64,000 bases of DNA from Arcobacter ellisii (GTDB lineage Bacteria; Campylobacterota; Campylobacteria; Campylobacterales; Arcobacteraceae). Positions 23,005-55,617 of the stretch are shown piece by piece. The DNA is taken from contig NZ_CP032097.1 in assembly GCF_003544915.1 (NCBI RefSeq), forward strand, positions 434,001 through 498,000, given 5' to 3'. The translations under genes and the position numbers were made by a program. The notes under the pieces were generated by a model. That model had not been told where the DNA came from. It did no database searches and was given only the letters and a program-made list of their open reading frames with translations. The stretch's first letter is position 1. Every line of letters starts with the position of its first letter.

Positions 23005-24816
23005 ATGAAAGAAGCTATTGAATTATTGAAAAGAAATGATTTGTTAAGAGTTATTGATGATGAATTGGATATTTATTTAGAAATTCCACATATTGCTTAC
23101 ATAGAAGTAAAAAAAGAGGATTCTAAAGCTCTATTATTCACAAATGTTGTAGATACAAAGAACAATAAAAAATTTGATATTCCAGTATTGATGAATGTTT
23201 TTTGTAATGAAAAAGCAGTGAAACTTTTTATTGGAGATGGGGATAAAATTGGAGCTGAAATTGAAGGGCTTTTAAAAATGAAGCCACCAACAACTTTTAG
23301 CGAAAAGTTATCTACTTTTGGAAAATTATTTGCTCTAAAAAATACTATACCTAAAAAATTAAAAGGAAAAGGTGAGTGTCAACAAGTAATAAAGCTTGGA
23401 AGTGATGCAAAACTTTCTGATTTACCAATTCTTACAACTTGGGAACAAGATGGAGGTCCATTTATTACAATGGGGCAAGTGTACACAACTTCTTTAAATG
23501 GTGAATTAAAAAACCTTGGAATGTATAGACTTCAAGTTTATGATGACCAAACTTTAGGAATGCACTGGCAAATTCATAAAGACTCAAATCATTTCTTCCA
23601 TGAGTATAAAAAAGCTGGTAAAAAGATGCCTGTAAGTATAGGAATTGGTGGAGATCCTATGTATATTTGGTGTGGACAAGCTCCTCTTCCAATTGGAATT
23701 TTTGAGCTTATGTTATATGGTTTTGTAAAAAATAAAAATGCTGAGCTTGTAAAGTCAATTACAAATGATATTTATGTTCCAAAAGATAATGATTTTATAA
23801 TTGAAGGTTTTGTTGACCCATCAAAACTAAGAATTGAAGGACCATTTGGAGACCATACAGGTTATTACACACTAGAAGAAGAGTATCCATTTATGGAAGT
23901 TACTGCTATTACAAGTAAGAAAAATCCTACTTATCTTGCAACTGTTGTTGGAAAACCGCCACTTGAAGATAAATATATGGGGCATGCAACGGAGAGAATT
24001 TTTTTACCACTTTTAAAAACAACTGCTCCTGATTTAGTTGATTATTATATGCCTGAAAATGGAGTTTTTCATAATCTAATTATTGCAAAAATTAAAACAC
24101 TTTATCCAGGACATGCAAGCCAGATGATGCATGCATTTTGGGGAGTAGGGCAAATGAGTTTTGTTAAACACGCTATTTTTGTAAATGAGGATGCACCTGA
24201 ACTGACTTCTCATGAAGAGATTACAAAATATATTTTAAATAGAATAAATATTGATGATATGCTTGTATCAAAAGGTGTAGTTGATGCGCTTGACCACTCA
24301 AGCCCAAAATTTGCAGTTGGTGGAAAACTTGGACTTGATTGTACTGGTGATGAGGTTACTGAACTTGGAATTACTCTTTTAGATGATGTTGAATTGCTTC
24401 AAAAAATGCAAAATATTTCAACTGAAATAAAAGCTTTAAAACAATACTTCAAAGATACAAAAAATCCAATTTGTGTGATAAGTGTAGAAAAAACAAGAAA
24501 TCAAAAATATCTTTTTGAAGAATTAAAACCATTATTTGAACATATTAAAATATTAATTATTGTTGATAGTGCAAAAAATGATGTGAATAATCCTTATATG
24601 CTTGTTTGGAGGGTTTGTAATAATATTGACTCAAATAGAGATTTATTTATTGACGAAAATATTATGTGTTTAGATGCAACAGATAAAAATGCACACGATA
24701 ACTTTAAACGAAGATGGCCTGATGATGTTGATTGTACAAAAGAGGTTATTGAGTCATTAAGAGAAAGAAAAATTATTGATGTAAGTGATGAATTTATCAA
24801 AAAATTCTACTTATAA
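23005..24816 (+). CDS. UbiD-family decarboxylase, probably menaquinone biosynthesis
   Basis: Prenyl-FMN-dependent aromatic carboxylyase of the UbiD family (603 aa). The signature EGPFGDHTGYY (about residue 278) contains the catalytic Glu/Asp region, and the N-terminal part carries the manganese/prFMN-binding residues (MHWQIHKDSNHF). E. coli UbiD is shorter, about 497 aa; the longer form is common in Campylobacterota, which make menaquinone by the futalosine route and lack ubiquinone. Removal of the carboxyl from a dihydroxynaphthoate intermediate is therefore the likeliest job (inference). It starts at ATG after GAGGGAAAA. It is convergent with the ThrE pair. Confidence 0.82.
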   Translation: MKEAIELLKRNDLLRVIDDELDIYLEIPHIAYIEVKKEDSKALLFTNVVDTKNNKKFDIPVLMNVFCNEKAVKLFIGDGDKIGAEIEGLLKMKPPTTFSEKLSTFGKLFALKNTIPKKLKGKGECQQVIKLGSDAKLSDLPILTTWEQDGGPFITMGQVYTTSLNGELKNLGMYRLQVYDDQTLGMHWQIHKDSNHFFHEYKKAGKKMPVSIGIGGDPMYIWCGQAPLPIGIFELMLYGFVKNKNAELVKSITNDIYVPKDNDFIIEGFVDPSKLRIEGPFGDHTGYYTLEEEYPFMEVTAITSKKNPTYLATVVGKPPLEDKYMGHATERIFLPLLKTTAPDLVDYYMPENGVFHNLIIAKIKTLYPGHASQMMHAFWGVGQMSFVKHAIFVNEDAPELTSHEEITKYILNRINIDDMLVSKGVVDALDHSSPKFAVGGKLGLDCTGDEVTELGITLLDDVELLQKMQNISTEIKALKQYFKDTKNPICVISVEKTRNQKYLFEELKPLFEHIKILIIVDSAKNDVNNPYMLVWRVCNNIDSNRDLFIDENIMCLDATDKNAHDNFKRRWPDDVDCTKEVIESLRERKIIDVSDEFIKKFYL

Positions 24817-37597: not shown

Positions 37598-39088
37598 TTA
37601 GTATGAAGTTTTAGTCTCAATACCTTTTGTTGATTCAGGGTTATAAACACCTTTTTCTTGAGCCTCTTTTTTCCAATCTTGCATTAAACCATTTTGGAAT
37701 TTCTTTTTCTCTTCAATACTTTTATCAAGAGATAAACCTGTTAATTCTTGAGCTTGTTTTTTATCCGTAATTTGAGGAGCTTTATAATCAGCTGCTCCAT
37801 GTTTTGCTAAAACTCTTGCAAGTTCAATTCTTGCATTTCCAGCTTTTTCTATAGCTGTTCCTAGAACTCTTAAAGTCTCTTCAGGAGCATGGAAAAATGC
37901 AGGGTGAGAAGCAACAGCAAAATCCCATCTCCATTGAGCATGTCTTATATTTGTTAAAATAGGTTTCATCTCTTCTTCAGTAGCTCCAACTTCCCAAGCT
38001 TTTCCTGCTTCAAAATGTGCATCAGATAAAAGTTTGATAGCTTTTGCTTGAAGTTCATCTTTTCTATCTCTTTTTTCTTTAATATTATCAAGTAGAGATT
38101 TTTCACTCACTCTATGACAATTCATACAAGTTTTATCCATACTATCAAGTGGATTCCCAATTTTATGGTCAGTATATTTTACTCCACCTTCTTGAGTATA
38201 AGGCATATGACAATCTACACAAGATACATTGTTTTTCCCATGTGCTCCTGTTTTCCACATTTCATAACCTGGGTGTTGAGCTTTTAACATTGGAGTTTTA
38301 GATATAGGGTGTACCCAATCACTAAAGTTGATATTGTCATAATATTTTTCCATATCTTCAACTTTAGTACCTTCTGCCCAAGGAAGAGTAACAGCCATTG
38401 CAGTTTTTCCATTTGTTAAAGGTGTTTTTTTGAAATAGTATTCAACGTGACATTGAGCACAAACCATTGTTCTTAAATCTTGTTGAGTTGCATTTTCAAG
38501 TGTAACACTATGACCTTCAGCTTTTAGCCCTTCATTTAAATAGTTTCTATTAACTTGAAGTTCCATTGTTTCTGGATTATGACAATCTACACAACCAATA
38601 GGATTAATAATATCTGAACCGTATTTAGCCCATTTACCTGTATAATACTCTTCATCTCCATCTTTTTTCATAATTCTTGGAACATCAGGAGATTTACATG
38701 TCCAACAAGCTGTTGGCATAGGACCTGTGTTTTCATCAGTTGGTGCACCAGTTCTTAATGTATTTCTATTATCTTCAACAGCATAGAAGTGACCTCTTGG
38801 TGCATTATAATCTTTTGCAAAACCATATCCAGCCCAAAGAACTACTAATTCAGGATATTTTTTTAACATATCTTCTATAGCATCAGACTCTTTTGTTTGT
38901 TTCCATGAGTCATACTCTCTTGGATAAAATTTTCTAAACTCTTCATTTTTAGTTTCCCATCTTTCAATTTGAGGAACTTTTTGAAGTTGTTCTTTTTCCT
39001 CTTTTTTTTCATTGATTGAAGCTAATAACGCAGTCATTAATCCTATTGCAATAATTGAAATTGCAAACAATAATTTATATTTTCCCAT
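37598..39088 (-). CDS. nrfA: Pentahaem cytochrome c nitrite reductase
   Basis: Periplasmic enzyme reducing nitrite to ammonium with six electrons (496 aa). Five haem sites are visible: C128-W-T-C131-K132 with the diagnostic lysine ligand of the catalytic haem, then CxxCH at C166, C210, C290 and C321. An N-terminal hydrophobic segment (about 5-24) serves as signal or anchor. QHPGYEMWKTGAHG (270-283) is the conserved active-site and calcium region. It is nine bases after nrfH and 13 before nrfI. Confidence 0.97.
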   Translation of the reverse strand: MGKYKLLFAISIIAIGLMTALLASINEKKEEKEQLQKVPQIERWETKNEEFRKFYPREYDSWKQTKESDAIEDMLKKYPELVVLWAGYGFAKDYNAPRGHFYAVEDNRNTLRTGAPTDENTGPMPTACWTCKSPDVPRIMKKDGDEEYYTGKWAKYGSDIINPIGCVDCHNPETMELQVNRNYLNEGLKAEGHSVTLENATQQDLRTMVCAQCHVEYYFKKTPLTNGKTAMAVTLPWAEGTKVEDMEKYYDNINFSDWVHPISKTPMLKAQHPGYEMWKTGAHGKNNVSCVDCHMPYTQEGGVKYTDHKIGNPLDSMDKTCMNCHRVSEKSLLDNIKEKRDRKDELQAKAIKLLSDAHFEAGKAWEVGATEEEMKPILTNIRHAQWRWDFAVASHPAFFHAPEETLRVLGTAIEKAGNARIELARVLAKHGAADYKAPQITDKKQAQELTGLSLDKSIEEKKKFQNGLMQDWKKEAQEKGVYNPESTKGIETKTSY

Positions 39089-39097
39089 GATGAACCT

Positions 39098-39640
39098 CTA
39101 TTTTAAGTTTTCTTTTATTCCCAAATTATAAGGGGTTGAAGTTAAACTTCTAACTTTTCCATGTGGCACATATTTGTGGCACTCCCAACATTTACGTTGA
39201 TTATCAATCTCCCCATTGTTGTGGGCATTATGATATTTATCAGCATTTGCTTTTAGTGTCTCATTTATACTTGTGTGACATCTAATACAATTTGCTTGAA
39301 CACGATTTGCTGCATCTTCACTTATCCGAATATTATTTTTATAAGTGTTTAAAGTAAAAGCAACAGAATGATTCCAGCCATCTCTTGCTTTTGCTTCATA
39401 TTTGGCGATTTCATCTCCAACAGGAAGATGACATTCTATACATGTTGCCACATTTTTATGTGAACTTTTTTCCCAAGTTGAATAAGCTGAATCCATTACA
39501 TGGCAGTTTATACAAGCTTTAGGGTCACTAGAAAGATAAGACAACATTTGAGATGCATACACAGTGTAAATAAATAATCCCGCAGCAATTAAAACACTAA
39601 CAATTGTCCCGTAAATGATTATTTTCTTATTTTTTTCCAT
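39098..39640 (-). CDS. nrfH: NrfH tetrahaem quinol dehydrogenase
   Basis: Membrane-anchored NapC/NrfH-family cytochrome that passes electrons from menaquinol to NrfA (180 aa). One N-terminal helix (about 7-28) is followed by four haem motifs, at C43 (CINCHVM), C67 (CIECH), C118 (CIRCH) and C151 (CWECH). CxxCHxM at the first site is the mark of NrfH, where Met ligates haem 1. It is the first gene of nrfHAI, with an AAGGAT ribosome site. Its promoter carries a Crp/Fnr-type box at -41.5. Confidence 0.96.
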   Translation of the reverse strand: MEKNKKIIIYGTIVSVLIAAGLFIYTVYASQMLSYLSSDPKACINCHVMDSAYSTWEKSSHKNVATCIECHLPVGDEIAKYEAKARDGWNHSVAFTLNTYKNNIRISEDAANRVQANCIRCHTSINETLKANADKYHNAHNNGEIDNQRKCWECHKYVPHGKVRSLTSTPYNLGIKENLK

Positions 39641-40686: not shown

Positions 40687-40699
40687 ACCTTGATAGTTT
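40671..40699. terminator. Hairpin between convergent DUF2249-like and nap-PAS genes
   Basis: AAACTGTCAAGG / CCTTGATAGTTT around loop gtaaa, a 12-bp stem with one G-T wobble, overlapping both stop codons. It probably ends the nap operon and the opposing gene. Confidence 0.65.
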
Positions 40700-41141
40700 A
40701 TTGATAAACCACTTTTCTTATTGGTTCGTTGTTTTGTTTTTTTAATTCATCATAAAGAAGTTGATATTTTAATTTTTCATCAAAAGAGATAGGTGTTCTA
40801 ACTGATTTATATTCAACTAATTTCCCATCTTTGAAAACTCCTGAAATTTCTGCGAAAACCCAGTAAAACCCTTCATCTTTTCTAAGATTTTTTACAATCC
40901 CACTCCAAGAACCTTTGCTTTTTAAATCTTCCCAAAGTTCTTTGAAAATAACTTTTGGCATATCTGGATGTCTTACAATATTGTGTGAACGACCTATTAA
41001 TTCATCTACTTCATAACCTGAAATCAAAGCAAAAGTTTCATTTGCATAAGTGATATTACCTTTTAAATCAGTTCTTGACACTATTAGTTCACCTTTTGGA
41101 ACAATAGTTTCACACAAAAAATTTCCGCTTAAGAATTCCAT
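40698..41141 (-). CDS. PAS-domain protein at the end of the nap operon
   Basis: 147-aa protein made of one PAS domain. ATG at 41141 is preferred over an earlier frame start because AGGAAA lies about six bases upstream and it follows napD by one base. Segments TYANETFALISGY, GRSHNIVRHPDMP and KDEGFYWVFAEI match the Aer/CetB type of PAS, whose members bind FAD and sense redox state. There is no output domain, so it needs a partner, as C. jejuni CetB needs CetA. Co-transcription with nap suggests nitrate- or redox-linked energy taxis (inference). Confidence 0.8.
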   Translation of the reverse strand: MEFLSGNFLCETIVPKGELIVSRTDLKGNITYANETFALISGYEVDELIGRSHNIVRHPDMPKVIFKELWEDLKSKGSWSGIVKNLRKDEGFYWVFAEISGVFKDGKLVEYKSVRTPISFDEKLKYQLLYDELKKQNNEPIRKVVYQ

Positions 41142-41142
41142 T

Positions 41143-41529
41143 TTATTTTCCTGTATTATCAAATGTTCTTGCAAAACCTTCTAAATCTTTTTTCTTTAAA
41201 TCCCCATTATAAACCATATCTGCTACATTAACTGTATTATCATTTAAAACTTTTGGCACAGCATCAGCATTTTCTAAAACTTCTATATGAGAACTTAACT
41301 CCTCTTCACTATATGCCATTTGCATCTCTGCACTAATTACATGGGGAATTGCTTCAATTACTTTTAATTTTTTTAGCTCTTCTTGAACACCATTTCCTTC
41401 AATCGTAATAATAATTCTTCCTTTTTCATCGTGCATATGATAATCACACACCTCTGACTTTTTTAGTGAGTCTATTACTTTATCTAGATATTTTGGAAGA
41501 GTTTGTACAACAATACTTGAAATATTCAT
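41143..41529 (-). CDS. napD: NapD chaperone
   Basis: Cytoplasmic chaperone that binds the NapA twin-arginine signal peptide and holds back export until the cofactor is in place. The N-terminal half (MNISSIVVQTLPKYLDKV through HVISAEMQMAYSEEEL) matches the ferredoxin-like NapD fold. At 128 aa it has a C-terminal extension of about 40 residues beyond E. coli NapD (87 aa). It lies 11 bases after napL, as in the epsilon nap operon. Confidence 0.85.
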   Translation of the reverse strand: MNISSIVVQTLPKYLDKVIDSLKKSEVCDYHMHDEKGRIIITIEGNGVQEELKKLKVIEAIPHVISAEMQMAYSEEELSSHIEVLENADAVPKVLNDNTVNVADMVYNGDLKKKDLEGFARTFDNTGK

Positions 41530-45230: not shown

Positions 45231-48041
45231 TTACGCTTGATAAATTTTTACTGCACACTTTTTAAAATCTGTTTGCCCTGATTGTGGACAAGTTGCATCT
45301 AAACAAACTTTGTTGATAAATACTTTTTCGTCAAACCAAGGAACAAATACTAAACCTCGAGATGGTCTATTTCTACCTCTTGTTTCAACCCTTGCTTTTA
45401 CTTTTCCACGTCTACTTTCAACCCAACAAAGTGAACCTTGTTTTACACCATAAGTTTTTGCATCTTCTGGGTGCATATAACAAAGTGCTTCAGGAACTGC
45501 ACGATATAGTTCAGGAACCCTCATAGTCATAGTTCCACTATGCCAATGCTCTAAAACCCTTCCTGTACTTAACCAAACTGGATATTCAGCATCTGGAACT
45601 TCAGGTGGATCCATATATGGTCTTGCAAAGATTTTAGCTTTATTTGTTAAAGCTTTTTTAGTTTGGTCTTTAATTCCAGTTAAATCACCTTGTGCTAACT
45701 CTTTTGCTAAGTGTCCATAGAATGCAAAATCACTATCTGGATTTGCTTTTTTAGCATAAGGGTCATATTTAGTATTAAATCTCCATTGAGTCTCTTTACC
45801 ATCAACAACTGGCCATTTAAGTCCTCTTACTCTATGGTAAGTATCAAAGTCAGCTAAATCGTGTCCATGACCTCTACCAAAATCAGCATACTCTTCAAAT
45901 AGATATTTTTGGATAAAGAATCCATATCCTTTCCAAGGTTTTCCATCACTACCAATAACATTTCTTGAATCTCCAGATCCATCAGTGTTATCATAACCAG
46001 CTTGAACAGGGTCTTTTGGATCTATTTTATAAGATTTTGCTTTTTTATTTGCAAATAAGATTTCATACATAGTTGTATTTTCATCATATCCCATAGCTTT
46101 AGCTGCTGCAATTACATCTGGAAGTTTAGTTTCACCTTTTGTACTATTAAGTGATTGTTCACCCCATAAATCTTTTACTGTAAATCTTTTTGAAAGTTCA
46201 ACCCATTGCCATGTATCAGACATTGCATCTCCAACTGGAACTACTTGTTGTCTCCAAAGTTGAGTTCTTCTTTCAGCATTTCCATATCCACCCCATTTTT
46301 CATAAATCATAGCAGATGGTAAAATTAAGTCAGATACTTTTGCAGAAATTCCAGGATATCCATCACTTGTTACGATGAAATTATCCATTTCCCTTGCTGC
46401 TTTTACCCAGTGTGTTGCACTTGCTGTATCTTGATATGGATTACAAACATTTACCCAAGCAAATTTGATATTTCCATCTTCGATATCTCTGTGGATTTTC
46501 ATAATATGTTGGTCACCTTTTGGATTTAAAGTTCCAGCAGGAATATTCCACGCTTTTTCAGTAACTGCTCTATCTTTTGGATTTGCAACCATCATATCAG
46601 CTGGAAGTCTATGAGTAAATGTTCCAACTTCTCTTGCTGTTCCACAAGCACTAGGTTGACCTGTTAGTGAGAATGCACCACTTCCTGGTTTTGCTTGTTT
46701 ATTTAATAAGAAGTGAACATTATATGAAAGTGTATTTACCCATGTTCCTCTTGTATGTTGATTCATTCCCATTGTCCAGAAAGATACAACTTTTCTATTT
46801 TTTTCAATATATAAATCAGCTAAAGTTTGAAGTTTTTTCTTAAACTCTTCAATATCTTCATCAGGATTTCCTTTTGAAATTTTTGCCACATAATCAAGTG
46901 TATAAGGCTCTAAAGATTTTTTATAATCTTCAAAAGAGATTTCCCAGTGTGCTAAACCAGTATTTTTGTTTACAAGTTTATCTCCTGCTTTATATCCATA
47001 TGGAGCAAGTGCTGGAGCTTCAGTTTCAGAAACAATTTTTTCCATCTCTTTAGAAATAGTTTGCATCTCTAAATCTGTATATTTTCCATCTTTGATAGAT
47101 TTTTCATCACTTCTTCTCATACCATAACCAATATTAACTGGACTTGCTGCAAATACGATATGTTCTTTTACGAAATCCCAATCAATTGATTCTGGGTGAT
47201 TATATACGATTTCTCTTGCAATATAATTCCATAATGCTAAGTCAGTATTTGGAGTAAAAATAATTTCAATATCAGCTAAATCAGAAGTTCTGTGAGTGTA
47301 TGTTGAAAGATTGATAACTTTTACTCTTTCTGGGTCACTTAATTTTCTATCAGTTACCCTTGACCATAAAATAGGGTGCATTTCTGCCATATTTGAACCC
47401 CAAGTTACAACTGTATCAGTTAATTCGATATCATCATAACATCCAGATGGTTCATCTATTCCAAAAGTTTGATAAAACCCAGTTACTGCTGATGCCATAC
47501 AATGTCTTGCATTTGGGTCAAAAGCATTTGATCTAAATCCTGCTTTCATCATTTTTAATGCAGCATAACCTTCCATAATTGTATATTGACCTGAAGCAAA
47601 AATTCCAATCCCTTCTGGACCTTTTTCTTTTAGTGCAACTCTTATGTGTTTTTCCATCTCATCAAAAGCTCTTTGCCAAGAAACAGGTGCAAAATCACCT
47701 TTTTTGTCAAATTCACCTTTTGAATTAACTCTTAATAAAGGTTGTTTTAATCTATCTGCTCCATACATAATTTTTGCATTGAAGTAACCTTTGATACAAT
47801 TAAGTCCTCTATTAACTGGTGCTGCTGGATCACCTTTTACTGCAACGATTTTTCCCTCTTTAGTAGCTAGCATAATCCCACAACCAGTTCCACAGAATCG
47901 GCAAGCTGCCTTATCCCATCTCCATCCACCTTCAGCTGCATTTGCTTGTGCTTGTAAATCAGCAGGTACTGTCATACCAATTGCTGCTGCTGCACTTGCT
48001 GCTGCTGAGCTTTTTAGGAAGTCTCTTCTTGAAAGCGACAT
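45231..48041 (-). CDS. napA: Periplasmic nitrate reductase catalytic subunit
   Basis: Molybdenum bis-MGD enzyme reducing nitrate to nitrite in the periplasm (936 aa, the longer epsilon type; about 100 residues more than E. coli NapA). Tat signal SRRDFLK at 4-10. The [4Fe-4S] ligands are C47, C50, C54 and C82. The Mo-binding Cys lies in ARHCMASAV (about residue 181). It is the first gene of napAGHBFLD-PAS, with an AAGGAGAAA ribosome site and a promoter carrying a Crp/Fnr-type box at -41.5. Confidence 0.97.
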
Positions 48042-49829: not shown

Positions 49830-50564
49830 CTAAATATTGAACCAATTGATTTTTTCTTTTAAATTTACAACTTCACCTATTACAATCATCACAGGTGTTT
49901 CTAATCCATAGGATTTTTCAACAATATTTTCTAAAGTTCCAACAACTACTTTTTGCTCTTTTGTTGTCCCTTTTGAAATAACTGCACAAGGATAATTTTT
50001 TCTTTTTCCCAAAGTTATTAGTTTTGAAGTGATTAATTCTAAATTATGATAACCCATTAAAAAAACTATGGTTTCATCATTTAAAAAAGTTTCCCACTCT
50101 ATTTGAGAGATTTTTTTCTTTGGATTTTCATGTCCTGTTACTACTCTAAAAGAAGTTGTTATTCCCCTATGAGTTACTGGAATTCCTGCATATGCTGGAA
50201 CAGCAATAGCAGATGTAATTCCAGGGATAATTTCAAATTGGATGTTTCTATCATGTAAGTATAAAGCTTCTTCTCCACCTCTTCCAAAAACAAAAGGGTC
50301 ACCACCTTTTAGTCTTACAACATTTTCGTATTTAAGGGAAGCTTGATAAATTAGTTCGTTTATTTCTTCTTGAGGAAGAGTATGTTTTTTGTCCTCTTTC
50401 CCTACATAAATTAATTCGCAAGATTTTTTTGCAAGTTCTAAAATTTCTGGGTTTACCAATCTATCATAAATTAAAACATCTGCATTTTTTATAACTCTTA
50501 CAGCTTTTAGTGTTAGTAATTCCACATCTCCTGGACCTGCTCCAGTTAGATAAACTTTTGACAT
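49830..50564 (-). CDS. cobA: Uroporphyrinogen-III C-methyltransferase
   Basis: SAM-dependent SUMT that makes precorrin-2, the branch toward sirohaem and cobalamin. MSKVYLTGAGPGDVELLT at the start, DRLVNPEIL, VRLKGGDPFVFGRGGEE, and GIPVTHRG are all family-typical. About 244 aa, the single-domain form without the CysG dehydrogenase part. The ATG at 50564 matches the usual family start; a GTG three codons earlier is also in frame and AGGA is between the ideal spacings for the two. It follows the sensor gene by about 55 bases on the same strand. Confidence 0.9.
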   Translation of the reverse strand: MSKVYLTGAGPGDVELLTLKAVRVIKNADVLIYDRLVNPEILELAKKSCELIYVGKEDKKHTLPQEEINELIYQASLKYENVVRLKGGDPFVFGRGGEEALYLHDRNIQFEIIPGITSAIAVPAYAGIPVTHRGITTSFRVVTGHENPKKKISQIEWETFLNDETIVFLMGYHNLELITSKLITLGKRKNYPCAVISKGTTKEQKVVVGTLENIVEKSYGLETPVMIVIGEVVNLKEKINWFNI

Positions 50565-50618
50565 AATAATCACTATTCCTTATATATATTATTTAGATAA
50601 ATTATATCTAAATAATTT

Positions 50619-51632
50619 TTAAGCTTCAGAAGATACTGAATTATTACAAGATTTTAAGATTTTATCTAACTCTTTTTTTAATTCTTGAAGTCTTTTTGTT
50701 GAATTTATTAGATACTCTTGAGATTGAATAACAATATCTTCACTTCTATTTAATTGTTTTGAAATATCTGCTGAATTTGTTAAATCATAAATGATTTTAC
50801 CAAATTCATCTGTTAACTCTTCAAGTTTTAAAGAGGCATTTTTTGATTGTTCAATTGCATCTGCTGAATAATTCATAACAGAATTTATTTTTTCAATAAA
50901 ACAATTTATAGTTTGTGTTGCTTCAACAATCTCATTTTCCCCTTCAATTTTTATAGGAGTTAATGGTTTAGTTACATTTTGTTCAACAATTTTTTTAGAT
51001 TCTTCTAGGAATTTTTTAGCATTTTCTTCCATAGATTTTAATTGTATAAAGCCATAAATTATTAATATCACTATTAAAAGTGCAAAAAAGTATTGCATAT
51101 ATCTTATATCATTAGTTTTTTCTTCACTGTAAATTGTGTACATATAAACTAATTTATCAACTTCTTCTAATAAAACTGGATTTGTTGTATAAATCAAATC
51201 TATGATATTTTCTAATGAATTTTTTGAAGAGGAATCATTCTTATTTATTAATTCTTTAAAATCAACAATATTTTGAAAAAAACTTTTCCATAAAATTTCA
51301 ATTTTCATAATTTGATTTGCAATCTCTTTTGTTGGAGCTTTTTGTATTTCTGATAGTTCATTTCCCTCTTTTAAAGAGTTTAGATTATAAATAAATTCTG
51401 TTGTTGAGTTTTCAAGTTCTACAAAAGATGAATTTTTATGTTGAGATAAATAAAAAATATTTTTTGAAATATTTTGAGTCAACATTCTTTGCTTCCCTGC
51501 AATATTTATAATCAAAGCATCTTTTTTATTTTTGTTATTTAGGTAAATAGTTGTTGCTATTACACTTAGCATTAAAACAAAAAATAGAATCCCTAATGAT
51601 TTTATTTTTGTACTGATTTTATTTTTATTCAT
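50619..51632 (-). CDS. NarX/PilJ-like membrane sensor without output domain
   Basis: 337-aa protein with two transmembrane helices (about 13-31 and 180-196) enclosing a periplasmic helical domain. Residues 40-57, including NIAGKQRMLTQNI, match the type IV pili methyl-accepting/NarX-like N-terminal domain, whose P-box binds nitrate or nitrite in NarX and NarQ. After TM2 comes a HAMP-like stretch (about 210-250) and a coiled coil to the C-terminus. There is no kinase domain and no chemotaxis hairpin, so the output is not conventional. Its start overlaps the Crp/Fnr gene's stop by four bases (ATGA). Nitrate binding is inference from the P-box-like segment and location. Confidence 0.75.
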   Translation of the reverse strand: MNKNKISTKIKSLGILFFVLMLSVIATTIYLNNKNKKDALIINIAGKQRMLTQNISKNIFYLSQHKNSSFVELENSTTEFIYNLNSLKEGNELSEIQKAPTKEIANQIMKIEILWKSFFQNIVDFKELINKNDSSSKNSLENIIDLIYTTNPVLLEEVDKLVYMYTIYSEEKTNDIRYMQYFFALLIVILIIYGFIQLKSMEENAKKFLEESKKIVEQNVTKPLTPIKIEGENEIVEATQTINCFIEKINSVMNYSADAIEQSKNASLKLEELTDEFGKIIYDLTNSADISKQLNRSEDIVIQSQEYLINSTKRLQELKKELDKILKSCNNSVSSEA

Positions 51633-52294
51633 ACTCCAACTCCTTTGAAGATAGAGATTAAACTCTCTTCATCATTTATTAATACATCGCCATTTTCTAT
51701 AGAAATTATGTTATCTCTTGATAATCTTTTTAAAACTCTTGATAGGGTCTCAGGTTGAATATGTAACATAAAAGAGACCTCTTGTCTTTTTAGTTTATTA
51801 AACATTTCTAAATCATTTTTTAGCATAAACGCCACTTTTGCAGTTGCATCAAATACTAATTCTCTATTTACGATACATTGTAATTGATGGGTTTTATCTA
51901 ATAAAACTTCCATTAATTCAGTTAATAAAATATTTTTTGATAAAAAGTGTTCATGAAGCTTTTCAAAATTTACAGATAAAATCACTGAATCTTCTATAAA
52001 TTCTGCATTTGAAAAACAATAAATCTCTGTAGATTTTAAAGAGGAGAGTTCACTAATCATGGAGTTTTTGTAAATATGATATAAAAAAATTTCATTTCCA
52101 AATTTATCATATTTATATATTTTAATTAAACCTTCAACTAAAAAAAGAAGATGGTTTTTTGTATCACTCTCATAAAATAATATAGAGTTACTTTCATATT
52201 TAGAAACAGTTGAAATTGAAGATATTAATCCTATTTCTTCTTCATCTAAACTATTAAAAAAACTTATTTTTCTGATGGTTTCAAGTAAATTCAC
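51629..52294 (-). CDS. Crp/Fnr-family transcriptional regulator
   Basis: 221-aa regulator: cyclic-nucleotide-binding-like beta-barrel (about 10-115), dimer helix (120-150), winged helix-turn-helix (about 165-215). The recognition helix contains E182-T-L-S185-R186, the E-x2-S-R set that in FNR reads TTGA half-sites. Only C93 and C140 are present, with no N-terminal Cys group, so it is not a [4Fe-4S] oxygen sensor; it is closer in type to DNR/NssR-like regulators. Boxes of type TTGA-N6-TCAA occur at nap and nrf. It is translationally coupled to the NarX-like sensor gene. Confidence 0.88.
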   Translation of the reverse strand: MNLLETIRKISFFNSLDEEEIGLISSISTVSKYESNSILFYESDTKNHLLFLVEGLIKIYKYDKFGNEIFLYHIYKNSMISELSSLKSTEIYCFSNAEFIEDSVILSVNFEKLHEHFLSKNILLTELMEVLLDKTHQLQCIVNRELVFDATAKVAFMLKNDLEMFNKLKRQEVSFMLHIQPETLSRVLKRLSRDNIISIENGDVLINDEESLISIFKGVGV

Positions 52295-54348: not shown

Positions 54349-55323
54349 ATGGACTTAAGTTTAATAGCCCAGAATATTTTAAATCCGCCGATTTTATTCT
54401 TTTTTTTGGGAATGTTAGCTGTATTTTTAAAATCAGATTTAACCATTCCCCAACCTCTTCCTAAACTCTTCTCTTTGTATCTATTGATTGCTATTGGTTT
54501 ACATGGTGGTTATGAATTATCAAAAAGTGGTTTAGATTTATATATTTTAAAAGCTCTTTGTTTAGCTATTTTTATGGCTATTTTAGTACCTATTTATAGT
54601 TTTTTTATTTTAAGAGTAAAACTTGATACTTATAATTCAGTTGCACTTGCAGCTACTTATGGTTCTATTAGTGCAGTTACTTTTATAACTGGAATTACAT
54701 ATTTACAAACAATTGGTGTTGAATATGGTGGTTTTATGGTCGCTGCTATGACTTTAATGGAATCGCCAGCTATTGTGATAGGTCTTGTATTTGCAGCACT
54801 TTTTACAAAAAAAGATAACAACTCATCTTCAACAAATTGGAAAGAGATATTTAAAGAAGCTTTTTTAAATCCATCTGTTTTTTTACTAATGGGAGCTTTA
54901 ATTATAGGAATTTTAACAGGTGAAAAAGGTTGGACTTCAATGGAGCCACTTTTTGGAGCTTTATTTAAAGGAATACTTGCATTTTTCCTTTTAGATATGG
55001 GACTTGTTGCAGCAAAAAGAATTTATGAACTAAAAAAACTAGGATATTTCTTAATCGCTTTTGCAATATTAATGCCAATATTTAATGCAACTGTGGCAAT
55101 GGGCTTAGGATACTATTTCGAAATATCAAAAGGAGATGCTTTTTTACTTGCACTTTTAAGTGGAAGTGCTTCATATATAGCAGTTCCAGCAGCTATGAGA
55201 TTATCAGTTCCTGAAGCAAATCCAGGAATTTATCTTCCTTTGAGTTTAGCAATTACTTTTCCTTTTAATATCTCAATTGGAATTCCTTTATACTACTTTT
55301 TAATAAATCTTTTTTGGAGCTAA
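54349..55323 (+). CDS. sbtA: SbtA-type sodium-dependent bicarbonate transporter
   Basis: Hydrophobic 324-aa protein with about ten transmembrane segments in two halves. LNPPILFFFLGMLAVFLKSD at the N-terminus, the GLHGGYEL segment, TLMESPAIVIG, and ASYIAVPAAMRL are conserved in SbtA/DUF897 permeases, which take up bicarbonate with sodium in cyanobacteria. The two-gene link to a PII-like SbtB downstream supports the assignment. It is the first gene of a four-gene run with purK and purE. Confidence 0.85.
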   Translation: MDLSLIAQNILNPPILFFFLGMLAVFLKSDLTIPQPLPKLFSLYLLIAIGLHGGYELSKSGLDLYILKALCLAIFMAILVPIYSFFILRVKLDTYNSVALAATYGSISAVTFITGITYLQTIGVEYGGFMVAAMTLMESPAIVIGLVFAALFTKKDNNSSSTNWKEIFKEAFLNPSVFLLMGALIIGILTGEKGWTSMEPLFGALFKGILAFFLLDMGLVAAKRIYELKKLGYFLIAFAILMPIFNATVAMGLGYYFEISKGDAFLLALLSGSASYIAVPAAMRLSVPEANPGIYLPLSLAITFPFNISIGIPLYYFLINLFWS

Positions 55324-55326
55324 AAT

Positions 55327-55617
55327 ATGAAAAATATGAAAAAAATCGAAGTTATAGTTGAGTCGGTTTATTTAAGTAGATTATTAGATTTATTTAAACA
55401 AAAAGGAATTACAGGTTACACAATCATACGAGATATTGAGGGTTGTGGAGGACATGGTCTAAAAATGGCTGATGAAGTTACTGATGTATTTAGTAATAAC
55501 TATATTTTTACAGTTTGCAATGAAGAGAAATTTTTATTTATGATAGAAGATATTAGAGCTTTTATAAAAAAATATGGTGGTAAATGTATTATCACAGATG
55601 TTATGTTATTACAATAA
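55327..55617 (+). CDS. sbtB: SbtB-like PII-family regulator
   Basis: 96-aa PII-like protein with ferredoxin-fold strands (KKIEVIVESVYLSRLLDLF, GITGYTII, CIITDVMLL) and the glycine-rich loop EGCGGHG that marks SbtB-type proteins. SbtB binds adenyl nucleotides including cAMP in cyanobacteria and controls SbtA by direct contact. It starts three bases after sbtA. It is not a GlnB/GlnK: the uridylylated T-loop tyrosine region is absent. Binding of a particular nucleotide here is inference. Confidence 0.8.
   Translation: MKNMKKIEVIVESVYLSRLLDLFKQKGITGYTIIRDIEGCGGHGLKMADEVTDVFSNNYIFTVCNEEKFLFMIEDIRAFIKKYGGKCIITDVMLLQ

Follow-up and report, generated by a model that had tools for sequence, protein, structure and literature searches.

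A conserved pair of a Crp/Fnr regulator and a kinase-less PilJ receptor as a putative nitrate-sensing switch in Campylobacterota

Examination of a 64,000-nucleotide stretch of DNA (the window; positions 434001-498000 of a 2.80 Mb Arcobacteraceae chromosome) revealed a gene pair, crp-pilJ, in which a Crp/Fnr-family regulator apparently of the NssA type is joined to a PilJ/NarQ-like membrane receptor (Table 1). A direct link from receptor to regulator is the most economical reading of the data, and we think it likely that the receptor governs the Crp/Fnr protein paired with it through direct contact, the two proteins forming a nitrate-sensing switch. Such a pair probably accounts for nitrate sensing without a classic two-component relay in many Campylobacterota; direct contact, activation and the direction of control are what we infer. 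A literature search, which did not reach Kern and Simon 2016, yielded no description of the pair, in line with the first-pass annotation of this DNA, to which none was known.

Table 1. Features of the crp-pilJ locus and of its putative targets (window coordinates).
Feature	Position	Strand	Remarks
Crp/Fnr-family regulator, NssA type (by sequence)	51629..52294	-	221 aa, GTG start, recognition helix QPETLSR
PilJ/NarQ-like membrane receptor without kinase	50619..51632	-	337 aa; P-box R49, HAMP-like linker, C-terminal hairpin
ATGA overlap, regulator stop and sensor start	51629..51632	-	4 nt common to both ORFs
cobA (uroporphyrinogen-III C-methyltransferase)	49830..50573	-	adjoins the sensor downstream in some close relatives
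napA	45231..48041	-	first gene of the nap operon, which extends to about 40698; putative target
nrfA (37598-39088) and nrfH (39098-39640)	37598..39640	-	putative target
Perfect TTGA-N6-TCAA palindrome TTGACCTATATCAA	48107..48120		upstream of napA
Perfect TTGA-N6-TCAA palindrome TTGACTTAAGTCAA	39694..39707		upstream of nrfHA

The four-base overlap of the two ORFs that had been reported at the outset was confirmed on the minus strand. Downstream of the sensor come cobA, a gene for a PAS-GGDEF-EAL protein, the nap operon, nrfHA and a gene for cytochrome c maturation; cobA is outside the crp-pilJ module. At its 3' end (40698-41174), the nap operon encodes a small Aer-like PAS protein whose position is kept in many nap operons of the class. 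Elsewhere in the window, an SbtA-like bicarbonate transporter gene (54349-55617) is followed by one for a PII-like protein, with purK and purE adjoining.

Co-occurrence across Campylobacterota had been proposed as a check on the pairing, and the scan carried out here found the pair conserved, linked to nap and duplicated as a unit. It covered one genome per species and gave 256 matches, of which 80 loci were listed; these loci belong to Arcobacter, Malaciobacter, Sulfurimonas, Sulfurospirillum, Sulfuricurvum, Helicobacter and others, apparently all Campylobacterota apart from a few assigned only as 'bacterium'. Of the 80 listed loci, 78 have the regulator gene immediately upstream of the sensor gene, the remaining two beginning at contig edges, and nap genes are present in 53 of the same 80, often in the order crp-pilJ-napA. 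All fetched loci together provided 138 distinct pairs with gaps of -56 to +43 nt, and the -4 nt overlap occurs in 54 of them. Within the genus of the window the sensor is found in 28 of 30 genomes, at every occurrence abutted by the regulator; of the two genomes devoid of it, one is 54% complete and the other, complete, also lacks NapA. The pairing of crp with pilJ is not due to chance. A class-wide sample of 397 genomes, in which a sensor was called from a model match with an E-value of 1e-30 or better, contains 122 sensor bearers, and NapA is encoded by 119 of these versus 211 of the 275 genomes without sensor (Fisher test, 2e-8, kinship ignored). The pair thus implies Nap, yet many Nap bearers, probably including Campylobacter, do without the pair.

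PilJ (PF13675) is the sole Pfam family above cut-off in the sensor (residues 30-126, E-value 4e-16, 59.4 bits for a cut-off of 26.6). No kinase, receiver, GGDEF or MCP domain was found by Pfam, and the phospho-acceptor histidine and ATPase domains of the NarX/NarQ kinases are likewise absent from the Pfam result; NCBIfam gave nothing above cut-off for either protein. No invariant histidine is seen in the alignment of 50 sensor relatives, nor any hidden output domain in their tails except for one weak MCP match (E-value 0.003), the window sensor itself having none. The tail was accordingly rejected as a kinase, receiver, GGDEF or chemotaxis output, there being no family match. In the AlphaFold model, TM1 leads into a periplasmic bundle of four helices, after which come TM2 (to residue 217), a short HAMP-like linker and a cytoplasmic hairpin of two long helices (233-286 and 290-334), the tail being predicted with medium to low confidence (pLDDT about 50-75). 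The protein had been described earlier as a two-helix membrane protein with no kinase, receiver or chemotaxis module; both transmembrane helices and the lack of output were recovered, and the HAMP-like part had been overlooked. Comparison by VIA-align placed the nitrate ligand-binding domain of McpN first (Z 18.1, rmsd 1.9 A over 124 residues) and matched the sensor-TM-HAMP fragment of NarQ to residues 1-253, with about 220 of them aligned at a Z of about 15, scores to be read in the knowledge that helical bundles generally score high; the sequence profile of the sensor likewise finds PilJ, McpN and, weakly, NarQ. As modelled, a helical hairpin replaces the post-HAMP kinase of NarQ. The most conserved cytoplasmic block is 298-307 (EDIVIQSQEY, conserved motif EDIxIQSxE), in nitrate-type and nosZ-type sensors alike, and it falls just beyond the predicted hairpin turn, a placement as expected for a docking tip in the model. 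When regulator and sensor were subjected to direct coupling analysis on 103 pairs (effective number 73), tail contacts were not enriched; signals inside each protein were weak too, and the number of sequences was too small for a real test.

The resemblance of residues 40-57 to the NarX/PilJ P-box that had been noted earlier was borne out by a P-box at I42-N-I-A-G-K-Q-R-M-L-T-Q53. Its R49 is equivalent to R61 of McpN, the residue needed for nitrate, through which nitrate is held on the dimer axis with G58 and M62 close by (PMC6381276). All 83 of the nitrate-type single sensors have the equivalents of the McpN G, R and M (G46, R49 and M50), a figure that is partly a matter of construction since the nitrate type was defined by the G-x-x-R-M pattern; the three residues are invariant also in alignment A3, whose 50 members were selected without this pattern and which is independent apart from the scan seed. 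From these residues we infer that the sensor would bind nitrate.

The regulator carries cNMP_binding (PF00027, E-value 5e-9) and HTH_Crp_2 (PF13545, E-value 3e-8) domains, both above cut-off, and its fold matches Crp, FNR and DNR, placing it in the Crp/Fnr superfamily. It had been annotated as a Crp/Fnr protein devoid of Fe-S cysteines but equipped with the E-x2-S-R recognition set, and both points hold: C93 and C140 are its only cysteines, so that the Fnr-type 4Fe-4S set is absent and the protein is not Fnr proper, and the set is read within the recognition helix. The helix QPETLSR is shared by the paired regulators examined, and among Crp paralogues the sequence is nearly always TPETLSR, SPETLSR or one like these; unpartnered proteins with QPETLSR come from one locus (L039) and from three loci truncated at a contig edge. 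The closest solved relative by profile is DNR of P. aeruginosa (E-value 5e-18), with CRP next. Judged on the cAMP contacts of E. coli CRP (Arg82, Ser83, Thr127 and Ser128), it is not a cAMP-responsive CRP, the position of Arg82 being occupied by a non-Arg residue in the profile alignment. The two cysteines align with A84 (C93) and E129 (C140) of E. coli CRP, beside the cAMP pocket, and accompany each other with hardly an exception (103 regulators with both, 3 with one, 57 with neither). A redox or metal input through them is possible, and a regulator with its own conserved cysteine pair may sense something itself.

One genome of the set (G208) is that of a candidate W. succinogenes DSM 1740, its nosZ being interrupted as in that strain. 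The window regulator is 44% identical to the nap-linked Crp protein of this genome and 31 and 26% identical to its other two. Two order-level Crp proteins, located upstream of nap and linked to PilJ, show 45, 29 and 26-28% identity to the three G208 proteins, a pattern that resembles the published identities to NssA, NssB and NssC (44.8, 29.2 and 26.1%), the 45% partner being the nap-linked protein. This match identifies the nap-linked protein of G208 as NssA with fair confidence on sequence grounds. It adjoins napA and is partnered by a 460-amino acid tandem-PilJ protein, while no PilJ neighbour was found for the NssB- and NssC-like proteins of G208. NssA is the closest characterised relative of the window regulator, which, being nearest to NssA among the three and linked to nap, can be assigned to the NssA type by sequence. 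In W. succinogenes, this Crp/Fnr regulator was reported to mediate the nitrate response by raising nap and nrf (PMC6682613, PMC8139620), and how the Nss regulators sense nitrate, NO and N2O is unexplained according to a review (PMC8139620). The statement that C. jejuni uses NssR and many epsilonproteobacteria NarXL-like systems or none omitted NssA (PMC6682613, PMC8139620) and needs correcting. The initial view of a NarX-like sensor coupled to the regulator stands as regards the likeness to NarQ and McpN and the replacement of the kinase; it had missed the class-wide conservation and the NssA type.

TTGA-N6-TCAA is the consensus reported for Nss/Dnr-type proteins (PMC11539149). Four perfect copies lie in the 64 kb window, two of them at napA and nrfHA (Table 1), and the chance that four random sites hit both 250-bp upstream regions (napA and nrfH) is about 2e-4; the copies at 24389 and 52800 fall within ubiD-like and trpD-like genes and were discounted as probable chance occurrences. 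Among related loci, with expectations drawn from mononucleotide shuffles, a perfect site is present upstream of napA in 50 of 67 (0.7 expected) and upstream of crp in 14 of 133 (1.5 expected), and upstream of nrfH it is found in 4 of 5; the control regions upstream of napG (0/76) and pilJ (4/139, 1.4 expected) were poor in such sites. The fuller motif reads TTGAC-N4-GTCAA. Other Crp/Fnr proteins with an E-T-x-S-R helix are present in most of these genomes, and such paralogues could use the same sites.

In Sulfurimonas and relatives, a sister crp-pilJ pair immediately precedes nosZ in 19 of 20 loci (the 18 fetched loci L134-L151 and L037), the remaining member (L033) having no nosZ adjoining, and a perfect TTGA-N6-TCAA site precedes nosZ in 19 of 20 (0.2 expected). 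All 20 sensors of this nosZ type have Lys at the position of R49 and none has G46, which is Asn in 17; E298, D299 and I302 of the tail are kept, and the partner regulators lack both C93 and C140. An equivalent change, R50K, is the one carried by the apo NarQ structure 5jeq. The nosZ type forms a monophyletic clade in both trees, with the same 20 members and a support of 1.0, which indicates that the pair was duplicated and retuned together. In this pair the switch would have been adapted to a different signal in the control of nosZ, and by its sequence the sensor is a candidate sensor of another nitrogen oxide.

Under the mechanism that we propose, periplasmic nitrate would be bound by the PilJ receptor at the dimer-axis Arg R49, as by McpN and NarQ, and the resulting change would pass via TM2 and the HAMP-like linker to a dimeric helical hairpin standing in place of the kinase core, the tip of which (E298-D299-x-x-I302-x-S304-x-E306) would touch the NssA-type Crp/Fnr protein of the same operon. 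The nitrate-free receptor would most likely retain the regulator at the membrane or keep it inactive, and nitrate would free it to bind TTGA-N6-TCAA sites and switch nap and nrf on. We lean somewhat towards such hold-and-release rather than co-activation. One locus (L039) has kept the regulator and a perfect napA site without any sensor, and this single case hints that the regulator is able to work alone and that the receptor restrains it. It speaks, as one case, against a receptor that acts as a positive partner, its nitrate-bound form activating the regulator at the membrane or stabilising the active form; this arrangement we hold to be rather unlikely, although protein co-activators of Crp-family regulators exist, such as PipX for NtcA.

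Two further explanations dispense with a direct contact. The regulator might respond to a signal of its own, be it redox, NO or a different ligand, with C93 and C140 as one possible route, and the PilJ protein would then be an independent nitrate device with nothing but the operon in common. The co-occurrence of these cysteines and their place beside the cAMP contacts of E. coli CRP agree with this, as does the kinship with DNR, a known NO and haem sensor; it is nonetheless improbable in our estimation, as the genes of regulator and sensor were copied together and have co-diverged, as a receptor without output has no evident purpose alone, and as the loss of the nitrate Arg from the sensor goes with the absence of both cysteines from the regulator in 20 of 20 nosZ-type pairs, so that sensor and regulator changed together. 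The receptor could also act through some other protein, for instance a histidine kinase, a chemotaxis array or a separate PilJ kinase with which it would form mixed dimers, leaving Crp only downstream. Its HAMP-plus-hairpin layout recalls chemoreceptors and kinases, and the genome of the window does encode another PilJ protein, a complete histidine kinase (452 amino acids, L203:6879-8237, at about 2.576 Mb). This kinase gene is far from nap, unlinked and without an adjoining response regulator, and was set aside as a partner for the sensor; 49 of 50 members gave no match of the tail to an MCP or kinase-dimer family, and the constant neighbour is a Crp gene, not a kinase gene, all of which makes action through another protein very unlikely. 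Direct control of the regulator by the receptor being preferred, we advance as a tentative generalisation, for which the balance is slightly unfavourable, a phosphorylation-free signalling class in which a NarQ-like receptor with a docking hairpin directly controls a Crp/Fnr protein, paired duplication having given one version for nitrate and nap-nrf and another for a different signal, perhaps N2O or NO, and nosZ.

Each component of the pair has relatives in known systems. With the NarX/NarQ kinases of the NarL/NarP systems the sensor shares a four-helix bundle of nitrate-sensor type, the P-box Arg, TM2 and a HAMP-like segment, but it has neither a kinase core nor a paired response regulator. 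McpN of Pseudomonas aeruginosa has the same PilJ ligand domain, is the best structural match and has its nitrate-site residues G, R and M conserved in the window sensor (PMC6381276), whereas it feeds the Che pathway through a chemotaxis signalling domain that the window sensor lacks. In Thermus thermophilus, DnrS/DnrT with DrpA/DrpB similarly combine a Crp-like regulator of nitrate respiration with separate sensing proteins, one of them in the membrane, and no phosphorelay (PMC6282519); DrpA and DrpB are, however, different proteins, are encoded in an operon of their own and bear no recognised nitrate-binding motif, and the system is not built as a two-gene unit of Crp and PilJ. DNR of Pseudomonas and NarR of Paracoccus are also Crp/Fnr proteins without Fe-S cluster that control nitrogen-oxide respiration, but they are described as one-component sensors of NO or of nitrate/nitrite that lack a partner receptor in the membrane. 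NssR of Campylobacter jejuni is another Crp/Fnr protein, the Nss proteins being described as homologous (PMC8139620), but its regulon is one of nitrosative stress and no PilJ partner is described in the literature found. NssA itself belongs to the same family as the window regulator and is reported to raise nap and nrf upon nitrate, with TTGA-N6-TCAA as its site (PMC6682613, PMC8139620, PMC11539149); no sensor partner is named for it in the literature found, and the partner in G208 has two PilJ domains versus one in the window sensor. The pair is a concrete candidate receptor for the nitrate branch of Nss regulation, and its nosZ-type sister a candidate signal input for nosZ, the N2O-removing enzyme. 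If true, the proposed switch would extend nitrate sensing beyond two-component systems in a phylum important for nitrogen cycling at vents and redoxclines.

Variation in the number of PilJ domains was also encountered. Six partner sensors (L031, L032, L034, L035, L036 and L133) carry two PilJ domains in tandem, as does P. aeruginosa PilJ, and that of L036 has a complete P-box in the first domain only. Finally, two loci (L043:2377-4068 and L044:3267-4958) encode 563-amino acid proteins that have a signal-like start and consist of four PilJ domains in tandem, with neither a membrane anchor nor an output module, and which by their sequence are possible periplasmic nitrate-binding repeats.
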